Part shown: positions 33,409 through 57,754 of the stretch, piece after piece | How positions within the stretch are numbered: the stretch's first letter is position 1 | Layout: every line of letters starts with the position of its first letter | Source: a virus | Length of the DNA stretch: 63,254 nt | Reading direction: 5' to 3' (one strand) | IMG/VR virus record: IMGVR_UViG_3300021403_000008 | Span: 1-63,254 of that record | Program-made: the position numbers and the translations under genes | Notes under the pieces: generated by a model | Databases searched by the model: none | What the model saw: the letters and a program-made list of their open reading frames with translations, nothing else | Told to the model about the DNA's origin: nothing

Positions 33409-33467
33409 TGGATTGCGTGCGCGGGCCAGCTCCCGTTAACTCGCCTTTCCGGGAGACTCAGCGCATC

Positions 33468-33502
33468 GAGGCCGCCAGGCCTGCTAGCCGCCTGGCGGCC
33501 TC
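33468..33502 (+). terminator. 12-bp hairpin in the resolvase leader
   Basis: GAGGCCGCCAGG (33468-33479) pairs with CCTGGCGGCCTC (33491-33502). It lies between the promoter box and two tandem GCGAAAGGCGAG motifs that precede ATG 33540, so it may act as an attenuator or mRNA-stabilising stem. Confidence 0.5.
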
Positions 33503-33539
33503 ACTCATATCTGGCGAAAGGCGAGGCGAAAGGCGAGTC

Positions 33540-36977: not shown

Positions 36978-37724
36978 ATGAGTAACCACATTCAGCACCA
37001 GACCCAGGGCCTTCCCTTCCCAGAGAACCAGCCCGCTCCGGAGCCGCGAGGCGAGGCGAAGAATGACGGGCTTGCCGTCATGGCCCTGATCTTCGGCTGG
37101 ACCTTCTTTCCGGTCGGCCTGCTCTTCGGCCACATGAGCAACCACGCCGCGAAGCGAGCGAACCGCAGGCGTTCCGTCCTCGCCATCGTCGGCCTCGTGG
37201 GCGCGTACTGGTGGACGGTCGTGGTAGTCATCTTCATCGTCGCCGGTATCGCCGGAGGCGCAAGCGGGAGTCCTACGGTGGCTCCTACGGTCATCACGCC
37301 GTCCAGCGCCGCTCCGCTCGCGCCGGTCACGCCCAAGCCCGCTCCGGCCACTCCGGAGCCCGCGACGGCGACTCCGGCTCCGGCGACGGAAGCTCCGGCC
37401 GCTCCGGCAGCGCCGGTCATCTCCGCGAGCCAGGCGCAGGCTCTCGACTCCGCGAAGTCCTACCTCAGCCTGGGCACCGGCTTCAGCCGCGCCAAGCTGA
37501 TCGAGCAGCTGAAGTTTGAGAAGTTTTCGACGGCCGACGCCACATGGGCCGTGGACCACTCCGGAGCCGACTGGGACGCGCAGGCTGTCGAGTCCGCGCA
37601 GGGCTACACCAAGCTGGGTACCGGCTTCAGCCGTCAGTCGCTCATCGACCAGCTCACCAGCCCGTACGGCGAGCAGTACACGCAGGCCCAGGCGACGTAC
37701 GCGGCCGGGAAGGTCGGCCTGTAG
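36978..37724 (+). CDS. Ltp-family membrane protein, superinfection exclusion candidate
   Basis: A 248-residue protein starting after GAAAGGCGAGAA. The N-terminal part has two hydrophobic spans (about 32-51 and 66-92), a Pro/Ala/Thr-rich stalk (95-150), then two tandem Ltp helix-turn-helix repeats: ALDSAKSYLSLGTGFSRAKL (about 155 on) and SAQGYTKLGTGFSRQSLIDQL, the first followed by FEKFSTADATWAVDHSGADW. In phage TP-J34 the Ltp lipoprotein blocks DNA injection by other phages. Here it is membrane-anchored by spans rather than a lipobox. GC3-rich codons suggest strong expression. Confidence 0.85.
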   Translation: MSNHIQHQTQGLPFPENQPAPEPRGEAKNDGLAVMALIFGWTFFPVGLLFGHMSNHAAKRANRRRSVLAIVGLVGAYWWTVVVVIFIVAGIAGGASGSPTVAPTVITPSSAAPLAPVTPKPAPATPEPATATPAPATEAPAAPAAPVISASQAQALDSAKSYLSLGTGFSRAKLIEQLKFEKFSTADATWAVDHSGADWDAQAVESAQGYTKLGTGFSRQSLIDQLTSPYGEQYTQAQATYAAGKVGL

Positions 37725-37789: not shown

Positions 37790-37933
37790 AAGTGAAGAGG
37801 TTGGGCGCGAACCGGGATCTAGGCTCCGCTTGCGGAGGACGGTTAAGACCAACATGGTAACGCTAGGCTGGTGGAAGCTAGCGGCCGGAGGTAAGTCCCT
37901 CCGGTTGGGACGGCCAGGCGCGCCTCTTCACTT
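37790..37933 (+). ncRNA. multi-branched structured RNA candidate A
   Basis: A 144-base noncoding segment closed by a perfect 11-bp stem AAGTGAAGAGG/CCTCTTCACTT, followed by GCGC/GCGC. Inside are AACCG/CGGTT (37810-37814 with 37840-37844) capped by CTCCG-CTTG-CGGAG, then CCAAC/GTTGG enclosing CGCTAG/CTAGCG and CGGAGG/CCTCCG hairpins. It lies between the Ltp terminator and the next gene's ribosome-binding site. No tRNA, tmRNA or known family recognised. Confidence 0.7.
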
Positions 37934-37955
37934 CTAAGGCGAGAAAGGCGAGACG

Positions 37956-50791: not shown

Positions 50792-50821
50792 TTCGACTTT
50801 CTGGCACGGTTCCGGTATCCT
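50792..50821 (+). promoter_or_regulatory. promoter for the helicase gene
   Basis: TTCGAC (50792-50797), an 18-base gap and TATCCTTGAGG (from 50816). It is one of the few boxes in this genome with a recognisable -35. Confidence 0.5.
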
Positions 50822-50850
50822 TGAGGCGAAGGCGAGCGAGAGGCGAGGAA

Positions 50851-52809
50851 GTGGAAGTTACCATCACGACGGACGGTAAGCGGATCATGGCGCGCATACC
50901 GTACGCGAACGGCTCCGGGCCGAAGCTCGCGAAGCGAGTACCCGGAGCACGGGCCGACTGGGACAAGACCGGGACCAAGGACGTGTTCAAGGGATGGGTC
51001 TACCCGCTCTCGATGGATACCTGCCGGAGCTTCCGCAAAGTCTTCGGTACGGACCTCGTGGTACTCCCTCCGCTCGTCCAGTGGTCGCGTGAGCAGGTTA
51101 AGGCCGAAGCGAAGCTGGAGGAACTGCGGGAAGAGGTCATAGACTCCGTAACCTTTGAGCTTCTAGGGCTCCAGGCTCCGGACCTCCTAGCCGCGATGCG
51201 TAACCGTCCGTATCAGCTAGCCGGTACGGCCTTCCTGCTTTCGGCTAAGGCCGCTATCCTCGCGGATGACCCCGGACTGGGCAAGACGCTCCAGACCCTA
51301 GCGGCCATTATCGAGTCCGACGCCAAGACGATCATCGTAGCCTGCCGCCGAAGCGCTACCCGGACGGTCTGGGAGCGGGAGACGATGCGGTGGGCTCCGG
51401 GTATCGCGACCTTTGTTGCGCAGGGGAGCCCGAAGGAACGCCAGGAGGCATTCGAGGAATTCTCCGACTTCCCGACTCACATTCCCGGTGTCCGGAAGAT
51501 GCTGATTATCAACATCGAGATGATCCGCGCCAAGAAGATCGAAATATGCCCGGAGACGAAAGGCCCGTGCGCCTATGGTGACCGTCCTCCGGCCAATCAC
51601 CCGAAGCATAAGTACAACGCGGAATACAAATGGCCGTTCCTCTTCGGGCAGGTCTGGGACGCCATTATCCTGGACGAGTCGCATAACCTTCTAGCCTCTA
51701 CCGCGAACATCCAGAGCAAGCGGATTACCCAGCAGCGCTTCGGCGCGATGAAGCTCCGGGGCTGCCTCCGGCCGGGAGGACTCGCCATCGCGCTGTCGGG
51801 TACTCCGTTCCGGTCTAAGCTCGTAAAGGGATGGGGCACGCTTAACTGGCTCCGGCCGGACCTCTTCGGCTCCTACTGGCGCTGGGCAACTCAGCACTTC
51901 GGAGTCGAGGACGGCCGGTATGGGAAGATCGTAGGCGGGACCGACGCGGAGGGTAAGCCGGTGAAGTCGCCGGACCCGCTGGACTCCGAGACGTGGGACC
52001 GGATGCTCAGGCCGCATTACCTCCGGAGGACCAAGGCCGAAGTAGTCCCGGACCTTCCGCCGATCTTCTACGCGGGAACGCCCATCCGGCCGGACGAGGC
52101 CGACTCTCCGTGTTACGTCCAGCTTGATATGCTACCGGAGCAGGCGAGAGCATACCGCCAGATCGCGGATGACGCGGAAGTTACCCTGGACGGCGAGAGG
52201 CTTACGGCTACCGGAGTCCTCGCGGAGATTACGAGGATGAGGCAGTTCGCGAATGCGGCCGGTCGGCTAGGGCCTAACCGGAGCGTCCTCCCGGCTCTGC
52301 CGAGCAACAAGCTAGAGTGGCTTGTAGACTTCATGCAAGAGCGGGAGGGTACCGGAGCCAAGGTCGTGGTCGCCTCGTCCTTTACGGCCATCGTAGAGCT
52401 AGCGGCCGACGTTCTACGCGCCGAAGGCTTTGAGGTCCTGACCCTAACCGGCACGACCAAGGACCGGGACCGCTCTGACCTCGTGGCCCGGTTCCAGGAC
52501 CCCAACGACTCCCTTCAGGTTGTCTGTATTAACCGGATAGCCGGAGGCGAGTCGATAACCCTGGACGCGGCCGACGAAATGGTCGTAATCGACCAGCCGT
52601 GGATATCGGATCAGGACGATCAGCTTGAGCCGCGAATTCACCGCGTCTCGCGTATTCACCAGGTCACGGTTTACCGGCTTATCTCGACGGGTACCGTTGA
52701 CGAGTGGATGGCGAGCCTAACGGACGAGCAGCGCGAGACGGTATCCAAGGCGAGCCCGCGTAAGCTCTCGGAGATGATGAAGGAATCCAGGACGGAGATG
52801 GCGGCATGA
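50851..52809 (+). CDS. SNF2/DEAD-like superfamily II DNA helicase
   Basis: A 652-residue protein starting GTG 50851, just after GAGAGGCGAGGAA; an upstream TTG is less likely. Walker A ADDPGLGKT (about 138-146), DESH box (275-278), motif III ALSGTPFRS, and C-terminal motifs with TGTTKDRDRSD, then motif VI-like QLEPRIHRVSRIHQV. Order and spacing match Swi2/Snf2-type phage helicases that remodel DNA-protein complexes or assist recombination and replication. Followed by a chain of small overlapping genes. Confidence 0.9.
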   Translation: MEVTITTDGKRIMARIPYANGSGPKLAKRVPGARADWDKTGTKDVFKGWVYPLSMDTCRSFRKVFGTDLVVLPPLVQWSREQVKAEAKLEELREEVIDSVTFELLGLQAPDLLAAMRNRPYQLAGTAFLLSAKAAILADDPGLGKTLQTLAAIIESDAKTIIVACRRSATRTVWERETMRWAPGIATFVAQGSPKERQEAFEEFSDFPTHIPGVRKMLIINIEMIRAKKIEICPETKGPCAYGDRPPANHPKHKYNAEYKWPFLFGQVWDAIILDESHNLLASTANIQSKRITQQRFGAMKLRGCLRPGGLAIALSGTPFRSKLVKGWGTLNWLRPDLFGSYWRWATQHFGVEDGRYGKIVGGTDAEGKPVKSPDPLDSETWDRMLRPHYLRRTKAEVVPDLPPIFYAGTPIRPDEADSPCYVQLDMLPEQARAYRQIADDAEVTLDGERLTATGVLAEITRMRQFANAAGRLGPNRSVLPALPSNKLEWLVDFMQEREGTGAKVVVASSFTAIVELAADVLRAEGFEVLTLTGTTKDRDRSDLVARFQDPNDSLQVVCINRIAGGESITLDAADEMVVIDQPWISDQDDQLEPRIHRVSRIHQVTVYRLISTGTVDEWMASLTDEQRETVSKASPRKLSEMMKESRTEMAA

Positions 52810-53297: not shown

Positions 53298-53458
53298 TGG
53301 GTGATAAGATAAGCAACACCGAGATGGCCGTGCTGATAGCGCATACGCTAACGACTGTCCTTGGCCTAGAGACGGACACGAGCGAAGGCGTCATTACGTT
53401 TACGGCCAAAGCTACCGGCCAGAAGTTCACGCTCACGGCAGCCGAGATTCAGTCATGA
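53297..53458 (+). CDS. 53-residue small protein
   Basis: Begins MGDKISNTEMAVLIAHTLTT in the previous stop; soluble, Thr-rich, with a predicted helix and two strands. Its end overlaps the next start. Function unknown. Confidence 0.5.
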   Translation: MGDKISNTEMAVLIAHTLTTVLGLETDTSEGVITFTAKATGQKFTLTAAEIQS

Positions 53459-53565
53459 GAAGCCGGAGCCCATGGGGCCAGAGCGTCATCCTATTCATCG
53501 CCTTCTGGCTCGCGGCGGCCATCCTCTGTATCGGCCTTCCGGCCTACCTAACGCGAGGCCGCTAA
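53455..53565 (+). CDS. 36-residue membrane peptide
   Basis: ATGA overlap with the previous gene and TAATG overlap with the next. Basic N-terminus MRSRSPWGQS, then one hydrophobic helix, ending TRGR. Function unknown. Confidence 0.5.
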   Translation: MRSRSPWGQSVILFIAFWLAAAILCIGLPAYLTRGR

Positions 53566-54413
53566 TGAGCCGGCATCCGCGAGCCGTCCGCGAGCTTCTA
53601 GCCTCCGAGATGATGAAGAAGGGAAGTGAGGTCGTGATCCTAATCACCGGAGCCGACGCGCTCTTGCGGCTTACCCGTGACTGCCGCTTCCCGGAGGCGA
53701 AGGCGAGACGGGTCCTAAACATCGCCTGGGAATTCGGCCAGAAGGCTGAGCCGTGTCCCGGAGGATATGTACATATCTGGTACCACGGGAAGGACGATAC
53801 CAATAACCACATATATTCGGTGGTAGAGCACATCGGGAATCCCCAGGGGAAAGGACTACCCACTGACAGGAATAGGGACTATACTCAGGGTAAGACAATG
53901 CCTCGCCGCTCCGGTGCGGCAGTAACGGAAACAACGAAAGGGAACACAATGCCTCCGCGCAAGACCAAGGCCGCGACTCCGGAGCCCGAAGTGGCCGAGC
54001 AGAACGGTGGTGAGGTGGACTTCGCGAAGTTCGTCCAGAAGCCGATCACCGACAAGATGACCGACTACATCGAGTGGTTCGAAGCGAACGTGGCGAGCCT
54101 CGACAAGCTGGAGGTGGACCGCATCCTCGTCCTGGGCGTCTCCATGTACAAGTACTTCCAGACCTCCGACTTCAACGCGGATCGTACGGAGCAGCGGCGC
54201 GCGGAGCGCGAGGCGGCCTCGACGGAGCCCGCGAGCGAGCCGGAGGTGGCCGCTCCGGCCCGTTCGGCGCGCGGCCGGTCCCGTACGGCTCCGGCGACGG
54301 CAACTCCCGCTCCGGCCAAGGCAGCCGGTCGCGCCGCGAAGGCTCCGGCCGGTCGCGCCACGACCCGCGCCAAGACCCGCGCCACGGCTCCGGCCGGTGA
54401 CGCACCCTTCTAA
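53565..54413 (+). CDS. long form: unrecognised N-terminal domain fused in frame to an H1-like protein
   Basis: A 282-residue frame with no stop between an N-terminal part (residues 1-110; GSEVVILITGADALLRLTRD, CPGGYVHIWYHGKDD) and the H1-like protein that has its own start at 53949. A TATACT box (53880) and GAAAGGGAACACA precede the internal start. Either a fusion is made together with a short form, or the N-terminal gene lost its stop. I cannot assign the N-terminal domain. Confidence 0.55.
   Translation: MSRHPRAVRELLASEMMKKGSEVVILITGADALLRLTRDCRFPEAKARRVLNIAWEFGQKAEPCPGGYVHIWYHGKDDTNNHIYSVVEHIGNPQGKGLPTDRNRDYTQGKTMPRRSGAAVTETTKGNTMPPRKTKAATPEPEVAEQNGGEVDFAKFVQKPITDKMTDYIEWFEANVASLDKLEVDRILVLGVSMYKYFQTSDFNADRTEQRRAEREAASTEPASEPEVAAPARSARGRSRTAPATATPAPAKAAGRAAKAPAGRATTRAKTRATAPAGDAPF
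53880..53885 (+). promoter_or_regulatory. internal promoter-like TATACT box
   Basis: GGGACTATACTCAGGG lies within the long frame, 69 bases before the internal start at 53949. It would give an mRNA for the short H1-like protein alone. Confidence 0.45.
53949..54413 (+). CDS. short form: H1-like Ala/Lys-tailed protein with SSB-like tip
   Basis: A 154-residue protein from the in-frame ATG 53949, preceded by GAAAGGGAACACA. Residues 15-85 form a helical domain (FVQKPITDKMTDYIEWFEAN); the rest is an Ala/Arg/Lys/Pro/Thr tail that ends GDAPF, like the acidic-hydrophobic tip of single-strand binding proteins. Codons turn GC3-rich from here on, supporting separate, strong expression. Probable DNA-binding protein. 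Confidence 0.65.
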   Translation: MPPRKTKAATPEPEVAEQNGGEVDFAKFVQKPITDKMTDYIEWFEANVASLDKLEVDRILVLGVSMYKYFQTSDFNADRTEQRRAEREAASTEPASEPEVAAPARSARGRSRTAPATATPAPAKAAGRAAKAPAGRATTRAKTRATAPAGDAPF

Positions 54414-54420
54414 CCAGACT

Positions 54421-54465
54421 CCAGCCCGGCCGTACCCTCTGACCCCCAGAATGCGGCCGGGCTGG
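54421..54465 (+). terminator. 12-bp hairpin terminator
   Basis: CCAGCCCGGCCG (54421-54432) pairs with CGGCCGGGCTGG (54454-54465). It directly follows the H1-like gene. Confidence 0.7.
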
Positions 54466-54475
54466 TCCGTCCGGT

Positions 54476-54561
54476 CCCTACCCGGAGGACCCAGCCTAGG
54501 CCAAGGCTGGTGAAAGCCGGACGGTAACCCGCGAGATGCGCGGTAGAGCCTCCGGGTAGGG
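54476..54561 (+). ncRNA. multi-branched structured RNA candidate C
   Basis: An 86-base noncoding element closed by a perfect 13-bp stem CCCTACCCGGAGG/CCTCCGGGTAGGG, containing hairpins CCAGCC/GGCTGG and CCGCG/CGCGG. It shares CTGGTG(A/G)AAGC and GGTAAC with element A at 37790 and, like it, lies between the terminator of a highly codon-adapted gene and the next gene's ribosome-binding site. Confidence 0.65.
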
Positions 54562-54599
54562 TCCAGGCGGATAATGAGCGAATGACGAAAGGCGAGGTA

Positions 54600-55745
54600 A
54601 TGGCGACCGCAGAGCTTCCCATCCCTATCCTCCGGACTTCGGAGCGCTCCACATTCAAGAAATGCGTATGGCGCTGGCTCCAGGAATACCGCTACGGCTA
54701 TAAGCCGCGAGGTATCCAGGCCGACGCGCTCTGGTTCGGAATCGGCATTCACAACGCGCTAGCCGAGTGGTACCTGAAGGGTAAGCGGCGCGGACCCCAT
54801 CCGGCCGATACCTGGGAAGCCTGGTGCGGAGATGAGATAGCCTGGGCGAAGTCCTACCTAACCGATACGTTTGAGGAACCAGTCTGGCTGGACGCTCGCG
54901 ATCTCGGAACCGCCATGCTTGAGGGATACGTCGATCAATGGGGCAAGGACCCGAAATGGCATATCATCGCCGTTGAGCAGCCTTTCGAGATAGCCATCCG
55001 GCGCGATCGGCAGACGGCCGTCATATTCAAGAGCCGGTGGGATGGCGTATTCCGGGACCTTGAGACCGGGCTCATCCTCCTACTCGAATCCAAGACCGCT
55101 ACCCAGATAGCGACGGCCTATCTTGAGATGGACGATCAGGGTGGCTCCTACTGGGCTGTGGCCGGCCGGGTCCTCCGCGCTAATGGAGTCCTGAAGCGCG
55201 GCGAAGAGATAGGCGGCATTCAGTACAACTTCCTCCGGAAGGCGATGCCGGACGAGCGGCCTATGAATTCACAGGGCCTCCGGACGAACAACCCGACCAG
55301 AGAGCATTATATCCGGGCTCTCCGGTCTGTCCGTATAGAGTTTGTCGAGCAGTCGAGTCCAAAGAGCGGGCCCATTCCCGTTGATAAGGCGAAGCTCGCA
55401 GACCTCCAGGTAGCCGCTAGCTTCGCCAACCTCCAGGTACTCGGAGACATCAGCAAGAGCCAGCCTCCACCGCTATTCGTCCGGCCGGACCCGATTATGC
55501 GGAACCAGGGAGAGATAGCTACTCAGCTCCAGCGGATAACGGACGAGGTTCAATGGATGAATGCCGTCCGGGACGGAACGCTACCGGCCATTAAGACTCC
55601 GACTCGCGACTGTCCGCGCTGTCCTTTCTGGGGTCCTTGTACCCTCCACGAGCAGGGTAGCGATTCGTACCTAACTCTACTAGAATCCAACTATACCCAA
55701 GAGGACCCATACGTTGATGCTGACGTTAAGTCGGCCGACGATTAG
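54600..55745 (+). CDS. Cas4/RecB-like exonuclease
   Basis: A 381-residue PD-(D/E)XK nuclease; ATG 54600 follows GAAAGGCGAGGTA. GIGIHNALAEW gives H51, then D148 in RWDGVF and E163/K165 in LLLESKTA. Cysteines C22, C337, C340 and C346 (CVW; CPRCPFWGPC) would hold an iron-sulphur cluster as in Cas4/AddB. It probably resects DNA ends for the recombinase encoded next. Confidence 0.88.
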   Translation: MATAELPIPILRTSERSTFKKCVWRWLQEYRYGYKPRGIQADALWFGIGIHNALAEWYLKGKRRGPHPADTWEAWCGDEIAWAKSYLTDTFEEPVWLDARDLGTAMLEGYVDQWGKDPKWHIIAVEQPFEIAIRRDRQTAVIFKSRWDGVFRDLETGLILLLESKTATQIATAYLEMDDQGGSYWAVAGRVLRANGVLKRGEEIGGIQYNFLRKAMPDERPMNSQGLRTNNPTREHYIRALRSVRIEFVEQSSPKSGPIPVDKAKLADLQVAASFANLQVLGDISKSQPPPLFVRPDPIMRNQGEIATQLQRITDEVQWMNAVRDGTLPAIKTPTRDCPRCPFWGPCTLHEQGSDSYLTLLESNYTQEDPYVDADVKSADD

Positions 55746-55753
55746 GAGGAACA

Positions 55754-56707
55754 ATGCCACCGAGGAAAGCGGCCGAAGAGACGGCCGACGCTCCGCGCAC
55801 CGGGACAAAGGCCCGGAGCCGGCAGACCGCGAGGCAGCAGAAGGATCAGCCCGCGCGGATGATGGAGGCTACGGTTGAAATCGAGGAAGTGACCCTAGCT
55901 TCCATCGTTACCTCAACCAACATCCTGATCCAGGGACCTCCCGGAGGCGGTAAGACAGCCCTAGCCGGTGGCGCGCCGAATGCCGTGTTCCTTTCTACCG
56001 AGATAGAGGGAGCTATCTCAGCGGCCATCTCCGGAAGCCGTGCCCGGCTCTGGCCCGCTCCGTCGTGGGAGTACTGTGTGGCCGGTATTCAGAAGGCCGA
56101 AGAGGAACTGGGCCCGGAAGACTGGCTCATCGTAGACTCCGGCACCAACATGCAGGAGATGTACATGAGGTGGATCATGGATTCCCTCGTGGCCTCGTCT
56201 CCGCATCGGGACCTCGACATTCCCTCTCCGGCAGAACACCAGAAATACCAGAACGGCTTCAAACGGTGGTATAACCGGATCATGAAGATGAAGGCGAATA
56301 CCATCTTCATCACCAACTCGATGACCGTCGATGACGATGAAGGGAATCCGCGTACCATTCCCCTCATTCTCGGCAAGAAAGGCGAGATATCCGACTACAT
56401 TTCCGCTCAGGCCGGAGTAGTCCTATACTACTCGGTAAGCCGCGAGAGCCGGGAGAATGAAGCTGTTGGCCCGGACGTTATCCGACGGGCTCTCGCTCAG
56501 CCTTTCCCTCCATGGCTCGCGAAGGACCGCTACAACGCTCTCGGTACGTTCTGGGACGTTCCTCACGGTGACTACACGGCGATGGCGAGGATGATCGACG
56601 CCATCGACAGGGCCAAGAAGGAAATGAAGAATGTCCGAGACTCCCGCGAGCCCGCAGCCCGGCCAGCCGTCCGTCGTGCTGTCCGACCCAGACGAGCAGC
56701 CAGCTGA
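55754..56707 (+). CDS. Sak4-like RecA-fold ATPase
   Basis: A 317-residue protein with AGGAGGAACA before ATG 55754. A charged Arg/Lys/Ala N-terminus, Walker A GPPGGGKT (61-68), Walker B WLIVDSG with D128, then LGKKGEISDYISAQAGVVLYY. The pattern matches phage Sak4 single-strand annealing/recombination ATPases. It follows the Cas4-like nuclease and precedes the SSB-like protein, a usual recombination trio. Confidence 0.85.
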   Translation: MPPRKAAEETADAPRTGTKARSRQTARQQKDQPARMMEATVEIEEVTLASIVTSTNILIQGPPGGGKTALAGGAPNAVFLSTEIEGAISAAISGSRARLWPAPSWEYCVAGIQKAEEELGPEDWLIVDSGTNMQEMYMRWIMDSLVASSPHRDLDIPSPAEHQKYQNGFKRWYNRIMKMKANTIFITNSMTVDDDEGNPRTIPLILGKKGEISDYISAQAGVVLYYSVSRESRENEAVGPDVIRRALAQPFPPWLAKDRYNALGTFWDVPHGDYTAMARMIDAIDRAKKEMKNVRDSREPAARPAVRRAVRPRRAAS

Positions 56708-56833: not shown

Positions 56834-57754
56834 ATGCCTAAGCTCAAGGATGTCAATGACCTCGATGTCGAGGCCCTGGATGCCGTCGAGTATTCCACCG
56901 AGGAATACACGACCTATGCCGGAGAGGTCCCGCCTGTCGGAATCGAGCTGACCGGGTACGTCAAGCGTCTGTGGTGGACGCGGACGGCTCCGAAGCAGGG
57001 CGGTGGCGGCGATGACCCGATGCTCAAGGTCCTGTGGGTCGCGGCCGACAACGACGGCGACAACGAGGAATTCAACGAGTGCCCGTTCTGGCTGAACGCT
57101 CCGCTCGTTCCGGGAGCCAAGTTCAGGTGGGCTCCGTTCCTCGACGTGTACGGCCTCACGCTCCGCCAGATCAAGACCAACACATTCGTCGCCTCGAAAG
57201 AGGACCAGAACGGCGCGCCCATCGAGCGCATCGGCCAGTGGAAGCCCGGAGAGGACCGGGACGAGGCGTGGTGCCGGATCATCACCGGCCAGGAGCCGTA
57301 TAACGGCGAGATGCAGGCCCGCGTCAAGGAATGGCTCATGTGGGACGAGGAAGGGACCGTGGAGCCGGGCGCGGAGGACGGCGACGGCGAAGAGGCCGGA
57401 GCGGAGGACGGCGACGGCGAAGAGGAAGGCGTGGAGCTTTTCGAGGACGATGAGGGGAACCTCGTTGACGCGGAAGGCAATATGTACGATGAGGACGGCG
57501 TGCTCATCGAGCCGGAGCCGGAACCGGAGCCTGCCCGTACCCGCCGCGCTCCGGCGCGAGCCGCTAAGCCAGCCGCTAAGGCTCCCGCTCGCGCGGCTAG
57601 GACGGCTCCGGCCGCGAAGCCCGCGAGGACGGCTCCGGCCACTACGCGGACGCGCGCAGCCGCTCCGAAGGCGGCTCGCGCCGCGACGGCGAAGGCTCCG
57701 GCCGGACGAGGCCGTGGCAGGGCTGCCGCTGCGCAGAACGAGCCTCCGTTTTGA
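56834..57754 (+). CDS. ssDNA-binding-protein-like, with acidic and H1-like tail
   Basis: A 306-residue protein starting after GAAAGGTAAGAGGCTA. The first 160 residues look like an OB-type DNA-binding core (GIELTGYVKRLWWTRTAP, FWLNAPLVPGAKFRWAPFL). Residues 175-225 are acidic with a repeated GAEDGDGEE, then an Ala/Pro/Arg/Lys tail ends QNEPPF, like the SSB tip. Codons are GC3-rich. Probably coats single strands and recruits replication proteins. Confidence 0.7.
   Translation: MPKLKDVNDLDVEALDAVEYSTEEYTTYAGEVPPVGIELTGYVKRLWWTRTAPKQGGGGDDPMLKVLWVAADNDGDNEEFNECPFWLNAPLVPGAKFRWAPFLDVYGLTLRQIKTNTFVASKEDQNGAPIERIGQWKPGEDRDEAWCRIITGQEPYNGEMQARVKEWLMWDEEGTVEPGAEDGDGEEAGAEDGDGEEEGVELFEDDEGNLVDAEGNMYDEDGVLIEPEPEPEPARTRRAPARAAKPAAKAPARAARTAPAAKPARTAPATTRTRAAAPKAARAATAKAPAGRGRGRAAAAQNEPPF

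Follow-up and report, generated by a model that had tools for sequence, protein, structure and literature searches.

Background

The RNase III processing sites of phages T7, T3 and lambda consist of a long duplex, about two helical turns in length, placed just before the ribosome-binding site of the next gene. The minimum target given for the enzyme is a duplex of 22 nt, and the targets described for it in lambda, T7 and T3 RNA are cut in E. coli (PMC5371410); the RNase III of Streptomyces is described as cutting mRNA (PMC2936110). In the account of selective RNA processing and stabilisation (SRPS) given for the cip-cel operon of Clostridium cellulolyticum, the stem-loops lie behind highly transcribed genes and mostly have no U-run (PMC4423207). 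Cluster K mycobacteriophages (PMC3203893) and EF Microbacterium phages (PMC7302621, PMC12699233) are described as carrying the SAS motifs GGGATAGGAGCCC and GGGAAAGGACCCC at many starts, with further conserved sequence immediately ahead of them; in cluster K this is the ESAS, made of imperfect 17-bp inverted repeats whose departures do not generally support RNA pairing (PMC3203893).

Here we compare with these systems a hairpin, element C, that lies in a virus record of 63,254 bases (the window, meaning the whole stretch of DNA that was analysed) whose genes match actinophage families. Element C is a genuine, conserved intercistronic hairpin and probably a functional one. Like the T7, T3 and lambda sites, it is a long duplex just before the ribosome-binding site of the next gene and a predicted RNase III substrate, although the plain 15-18-bp forms of some relatives fall short of the usual substrate length. 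It shares with the SRPS stem-loops of the cip-cel operon a stable fold, the prevailing lack of a U-run and, on the presumption that the upstream gene is the more expressed one, a position between more and less expressed operon genes, and here, as there, orthologous hairpins are kept by place while their sequence changes (PMC4423207). Unlike those stem-loops, which belong to bacterial operons and whose processing was mapped by sequencing (PMC4423207), element C belongs to a phage; it comes second in a row of two hairpins, is clasped and keeps a narrow spacing to the start that follows.

Results

The operon and its two hairpins

Element C lies in a replication/recombination operon that runs from a helicase gene (50821-52809) through small genes, an Ala-rich gene, the element itself and an exonuclease gene to the gene of a Sak4-like protein (55754-56707). 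The order is the same in Microbacterium phage MortySmith and is found in outline in Streptomyces phage PHTowN and Gordonia phage RedRaider. Among the matches listed, the exonuclease has its closest cultured relatives in Gordonia, Microbacterium and Streptomyces phages, at identities of no more than 42.9%. The Ala-rich gene has no Pfam or PHROG match, and its orthologues, with the core consensus SpTMxDYxxWFExNV...LGSsLYphFQKSDFNxxRREARRxxR, sit in the same place in relatives. A second codon-adapted gene of the window (56834-57754) encodes an Ala/Pro/Arg-rich tail ending NEPPF.

Table 1. Features at the element C locus, with element A for comparison (window coordinates).
Feature	Position	Strand	Remarks
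Element A (comparison only)	37790-37933	+	long stem-closed RNA behind the Ltp-lipoprotein gene
Ala-rich codon-adapted gene, 154 aa	53949-54413	+	core of about 60 residues kept in relatives; Ala/Pro/Arg/Lys tail ending GDAPF
Hairpin 1, perfect 12-bp stem	54421-54465	+	arms 54421-54432/54454-54465, behind the Ala-rich gene; no T-run
Left clasp of element C	54466-54475	+	predicted fold: 6 nt, C mismatch 54472, GG 54473-54474, U mismatch 54475
Left arm of the 13-bp closing stem, CCCTACCCGGAGG	54476-54488	+	outer part kept in L007, L008, L009 and L046
Apical interior, variable	54489-54548	+	predicted fold: three small hairpins; holds the words CTGGTGAAAGC and GGTAAC, both shared with element A
Right arm of the 13-bp closing stem, CCTCCGGGTAGGG	54549-54561	+	
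Right clasp of element C	54562-54571	+	predicted fold: U mismatch, CC, A mismatch, GGCGGA
GAAAGGCGAG, SAS-like ribosome-binding site motif	54587-54596	+	repeated at ORF starts
Cas4/RecB-type PD-(D/E)XK exonuclease gene	54600-55745	+	PHROG 1218 exonuclease, E 3.7e-87; PF12705

The sequence-only reading had placed element C directly behind the terminator of a codon-adapted gene and before a start motif. Codon adaptation is borne out (GC3 of 0.86 in the Ala-rich gene versus 0.69 in the downstream exonuclease gene), a hairpin does follow that gene and GAAAGGCGAG does stand before the exonuclease start; the terminator itself was not recovered, since a scan of 53300-54700 gave 0 terminator-like sites and there is no T-run at hairpin 1 or at element C. 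Hairpin 1, whose position is occupied by a hairpin in many relatives as well, is thus a hairpin with a putative terminator role. A scan of 53300-54700 for sigma-70-like promoters found none, and the exonuclease gene is therefore probably carried on the upstream transcript.

The 13-bp closing stem was found exactly as first described, enclosing an interior of 60 nt, but the element is longer than had been thought (54466-54571) and its interior forms three hairpins, not two. In the predicted fold, 54466-54471 pair with 54566-54571 (6 bp) and 54473-54474 with 54563-54564 (2 bp), which leaves the single mismatches C.A (54472/54565) and U.U (54475/54562) between the blocks of the clasp. The clasped stem amounts to 21 bp plus the two mismatches and is as long as the duplex of about 22 nt or more expected of an RNase III target. 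Folding of 54460-54580 as RNA gave -69.7 kcal/mol (z -5.15) and that of 54466-54575 a z of -6.03, with 0 of 200 dinucleotide shuffles as good in either case; the structure of element C is real. On the minus strand, 54452-54581 gave a weak score with the mraW RNA model (28.7 bits against a gathering score of 50; E 0.0003 in a 261-base search), which probably reflects the symmetry of the hairpin.

Conservation of the arms in close relatives

An alignment of five exonucleases led to 80 viral loci. We call class I the window together with L007, L008 and L009/L046. L007, L008, L009 and L046, whose exonuclease is 68-69% identical, carry at the corresponding spot the arms GGT(C/T)CCTACC...GGTAGGGTCCAG, with GGGTCCAG closing the stem end, around interiors that differ in length and sequence, and element C presents the same arms before its own exonuclease gene (as RNA, GG-U-(C/U)CCUACC...GGUAGGG-U-CC-A). 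The clasp layout is the same in L007, and a U-A pair replaces C.A in L008 and L046; pairing over the four members, element C included, is 97.4%. Best local matches of the other three class I interiors were equalled by 207, 385 and 895 of 1000 shuffles. With the arms kept and the interiors unrelated, it is the arms that constitute the element, and the branched interior is not conserved. These arms are single-copy, being found once in the window and once per record in G001, G016, G017 and G032. When all viral contigs were searched for GGTCCCTACC...GGTAGGGTCCAG, a gap of 20-50 nt matched only the contigs of L008, L009 and L046, and a gap of 51-81 nt matched none, the window's own record perhaps being absent from the set.

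Position of the hairpin among more distant relatives

In 27 of the 31 non-redundant relatives with identity of at least 50%, a stem of 10 bp or more has its end 23-52 nt ahead of the exonuclease start; this count ignores flank sequence and includes L002 by virtue of its hairpin 1. The corresponding figures are 4 of 31 for relatives below 50% identity and 47 of 1128 for positions drawn at random from these loci. Two disjoint stems were found in 27 of 76 upstream regions versus 6 of 681 random windows. The positional exceptions are L016-L019 (one non-redundant row), which have no stem, L002, which has hairpin 1 only, L025, whose hairpin lies farther upstream, and L029 and L074, where either there is doubt about the start used or the end of the stem is nearer to it. 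Because L002 and L016-L019 do without it, the second hairpin is dispensable.

At 13 sites matched by the profile described below, the listed upstream stop lies 0-8 nt before the hairpin in 7 and the next start 9-47 nt after it in 11. In L010, L048 and L020 it keeps its place by the exonuclease despite a distance of 145-221 nt from the stop of the Ala-rich gene (189-194 nt between that stop and the hairpin in L010 and L048, as measured by the Ala-rich ORF), and in L050, L064 and L056 it lies behind a second Ala-rich gene, whose product ends in EPPF or DPPF, and before other genes, beginning 6-7 nt past the stop codon in L050 and L064. Its sites relative to these genes point to an intercistronic element rather than to the leader of one gene. 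It always runs in the coding direction, at a narrow distance from the start codon.

Class II and plain-stem relatives

The more distant relatives that we call class II have other arms, C(C/U)UGAGC-stem-CUGARGG. In 16 rows picked for a visible stem with these flanks, so that high pairing is partly built in, 95.1% of cells were paired once the interior had been cut out and both sides had changed in 14 of 19 pairs; the shuffle control gave 74.9% and 9.0 pairs with double changes, and moving the partner by 1-3 columns lowered pairing to 34-52%. The flanks UGAGC (left) and CUGA (right) are invariant in these rows. In building this alignment (A3), L044, with departing flanks, was dropped after the first alignment and L013, L025 and L064 were left out. 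Independent support for the hairpin comes from the frequency of stems by position and from matches of the class II profile, R1, beyond its training rows (L013, L025, L056, L064 and L082), those in L011, L012, L036 and L049 being near copies of training rows. Across 89 loci R1 gave 29 sense matches with E ≤0.01, of which four fell in duplicate records, and on whole records it matched at one place each in 18 of 28, among them G018 with a weak plain-stem match. Against the window it gave 4 matches, none better than E 0.3 and all of them away from element C.

The class II mismatches, an outer G.G in 16 of 16 rows and an inner C.C in 13 (C.U in L048 and L061, a C-G pair in L033), occupy the exact positions of the class I C.A and U.U, so that both positions recur with other letters. 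Place and this mismatch-2bp-mismatch layout are the only features that element C and class II have in common, and a structural scan for hairpins of that layout was nonspecific (114 sense and 211 antisense matches versus 77 per strand in shuffled loci), so that the layout by itself is no proof. Scanning by sequence for UGAGC-stem-CCUGA brought up 21 matches, all sense, versus 1 in shuffled loci. Element C hence belongs to the positional family and to class I, and since R1 does not find it we call it only a likely relative of class II. The stem of a third group of relatives is plain, 15-18 bp long and mostly GTCCCAGGCGG..., and it has neither clasp nor flanks.

The start motif

The window contains 15 exact copies of GAAAGGCGAG, and in 11 cases an ORF of at least 80 aa starts 0-4 nt after the copy; an ORF start lies within 12 nt of 11 of the 15, compared with 18% of random positions, and 37 copies are found when one mismatch is allowed, versus 6.7 expected. 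As a conserved motif in many copies at the ribosome-site position of many starts it is a SAS, a likeness to the SAS/ESAS phages. GARAGGCGAG is likewise repeated in the whole records of relatives (18 matches in that of L048, 15 in that of L020). The GAAAGGCGAG sites are spread over 33516-61192, and at 33439-33538 two copies face each other at a distance of 78 nt, making an 11-bp inverted repeat that encloses a 13-bp hairpin (33468-33502).

Comparison with element A and database searches

Elements A and C had been proposed to form one phage-encoded RNA family because of their place and of two shared words, CTGGTG(A/G)AAGC and GGTAAC. The likeness of place stands: each follows a codon-adapted gene and its hairpin, is closed by a long stem and has GAAAGGCGAG next, a few bases before a start. 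Likewise, element C is a structured phage-encoded element, and it does have relatives in other phages, defined by synteny and closing stem. The words, in turn, are exactly present, yet at chance level, in reversed order and inside the unconserved interior of element C. With at most one mismatch, CTGGTG(A/G)AAGC occurs 2 times in the window versus 1.74 expected; in the shuffled control, the 11-mer match between A and C (at most one mismatch) was equalled in 65 of 400 dinucleotide-shuffled pairs, and it was also equalled in 81 of 400 random window pairs. GGTAAC precedes CTGGTG in A (37856, 37868) and follows it in C (54523, 54507), and in the predicted folds the first word lies mostly in a hairpin loop in A and has its start in a hairpin arm in C. 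Shuffles, random pairs and motif order lead us to reject the kinship of A and C by sequence; as one RNA family by sequence they are unsupported.

Element A folded with its closing stem at z -3.19, and the stretch 37795-37945 at z -0.86. The only other copy found, identical over the region, is in viral contig L113, and named phages gave no match. Directly before element A is an Ltp-type host-surface lipoprotein gene (36978-37724; superinfection exclusion family, phrog_4980; GC3 0.85), for which 14 related records searched gave no match.

Rfam 15 gave no match above the gathering score in the window or in 9 related loci, and a riboswitch or other known RNA was rejected on the lack of an Rfam family and the unconserved interior. 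In blastn against phages, the element C region matched 8 Aeromonas records, with an E of 9 and 17% of the query covered; plasmids gave 5 weak records. The exact pattern of the element C interior had 0 matches in 2.9 million viral contigs. Among genome contigs, 54 candidate stretches for host or prophage relatives included none encoding a relative. The literature searched contained no report of this hairpin that we could find, which does not prove its absence.

Discussion

We tentatively favour the view that element C is an intercistronic, cis-acting RNA processing or stabilising hairpin of the replication/recombination operon. The Ala-rich protein is presumably abundant, and where the gene of a probably abundant product meets that of a less abundant one and hairpins stand between them, processing and differential stability of one transcript would be the simplest mechanism. 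A host double-strand-specific RNase, of the RNase III kind, would cut the operon transcript at or beside element C; hairpin 1 would then protect the Ala-rich mRNA at its 3' end, and a short leader with the GAAAGGCGAG site would form the beginning of the exonuclease mRNA. One transcript could in this way give neighbouring proteins in very different amounts, as in SRPS; a stable hairpin and a codon bias in the gene upstream of it are observed here. The strong fold, the fixed place, the lack of a sigma-70-like promoter in 53300-54700 and an arm pair kept by covariation while the apical part varies argue for such processing. Against it are the relatives that do without the second hairpin, the failure of R1 to match element C, the tied strand test described below, the plain stems without clasp in many relatives, which are short for RNase III, and the invariant class II flanks, which exceed the needs of a generic nuclease site; because the plain stems suit processing less and the flanks are suggestive of a specific binder, our confidence in it is guarded.

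Such a binder is at the centre of another explanation, in which the hairpin is a protein-binding RNA operator. The clasped stem and its mismatches would then be the docking site of a phage protein (the basic-tailed Ala-rich protein and the exonuclease are examples), which would regulate either the exonuclease or the mRNA it is itself made from. The constancy of UGAGC and CUGA in class II, where most stem pairs change compensatorily, would suit it, as would the return of the two mismatch positions in class I with other letters and the one place per record in all 18 matching records; we nevertheless consider it unlikely, since no RNA-binding domain was recognised in the neighbour genes, the hairpin stands before other genes in L050, L064 and L056, and there are plain-stem relatives without the flanks. 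It is doubtful, too, that we are dealing with a phage-specific cis-RNA family in which two conserved single mismatches, two pairs apart and below a free apical domain, are read by a dedicated phage protein or a hijacked host protein, a family that would partition the recombination operon in a large clade of uncultured actinophages, with a split into two recognition classes (U.U with C.A versus C.C with G.G). A GC-rich hairpin directly behind the first one, so close to the stop codon in L050 and L064, might also suggest a second, tandem terminator or an attenuator behind the Ala-rich gene. This seems rather doubtful to us, given that neither hairpin has the T-run of a rho-independent terminator and that the class II flanks are conserved beyond what a terminator needs; moreover, the hairpin ends only about 25-45 nt before the next start, which leaves little room for a new promoter, so that full termination would silence the exonuclease gene.

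The remaining explanations are less probable still. A DNA-level element of the replication module, such as a cruciform or a replication or recombination site, would agree with a single copy in a recombination/replication operon and with a strand test in which G-U and A-C were tied at 5 to 5, but the constant coding direction, the narrow distance to the start codon and the absence of a skew turn near 54.5 kb make it improbable. An inverted repeat with a variable spacer just upstream of a start-associated motif recalls the ESAS of cluster K (PMC3203893), that is, a DNA or RNA site repeated before many phage genes, for which we looked for a repeat before about half of a genome's SAS genes. Class I arms and class II hairpins alike occupy one place per record in the records searched, the interiors of the hairpin are variable and often long, many hairpin-bearing relatives have no start motif, and the changes here keep pairing, unlike the departures described for cluster K (PMC3203893); an ESAS-like repeat is accordingly very improbable, and element C, single-copy and covarying, is rejected as an ESAS as far as these searches reach. 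Finally, a single trans-acting family of structured RNAs comprising elements A and C, the proposal of the sequence-only reading, agrees with their same kind of place and with both folding better than shuffles, but we find it barely credible in view of the chance-level and reversed words, the interior of C that is neither conserved nor found elsewhere in viral contigs, and the lack of any promoter seen in 53300-54700.

The eye-catching pair of structured RNAs thus comes down to one chance resemblance and one conserved element. Other phages can be screened for the class II arms of its relatives (UGAGC...CUGARGG), and nuclease or binding assays have a ready substrate in the clasped stem. As a processing or stabilising hairpin, element C would offer phage operons a simple way, open to test, of adjusting how much of one protein is made relative to its neighbour.
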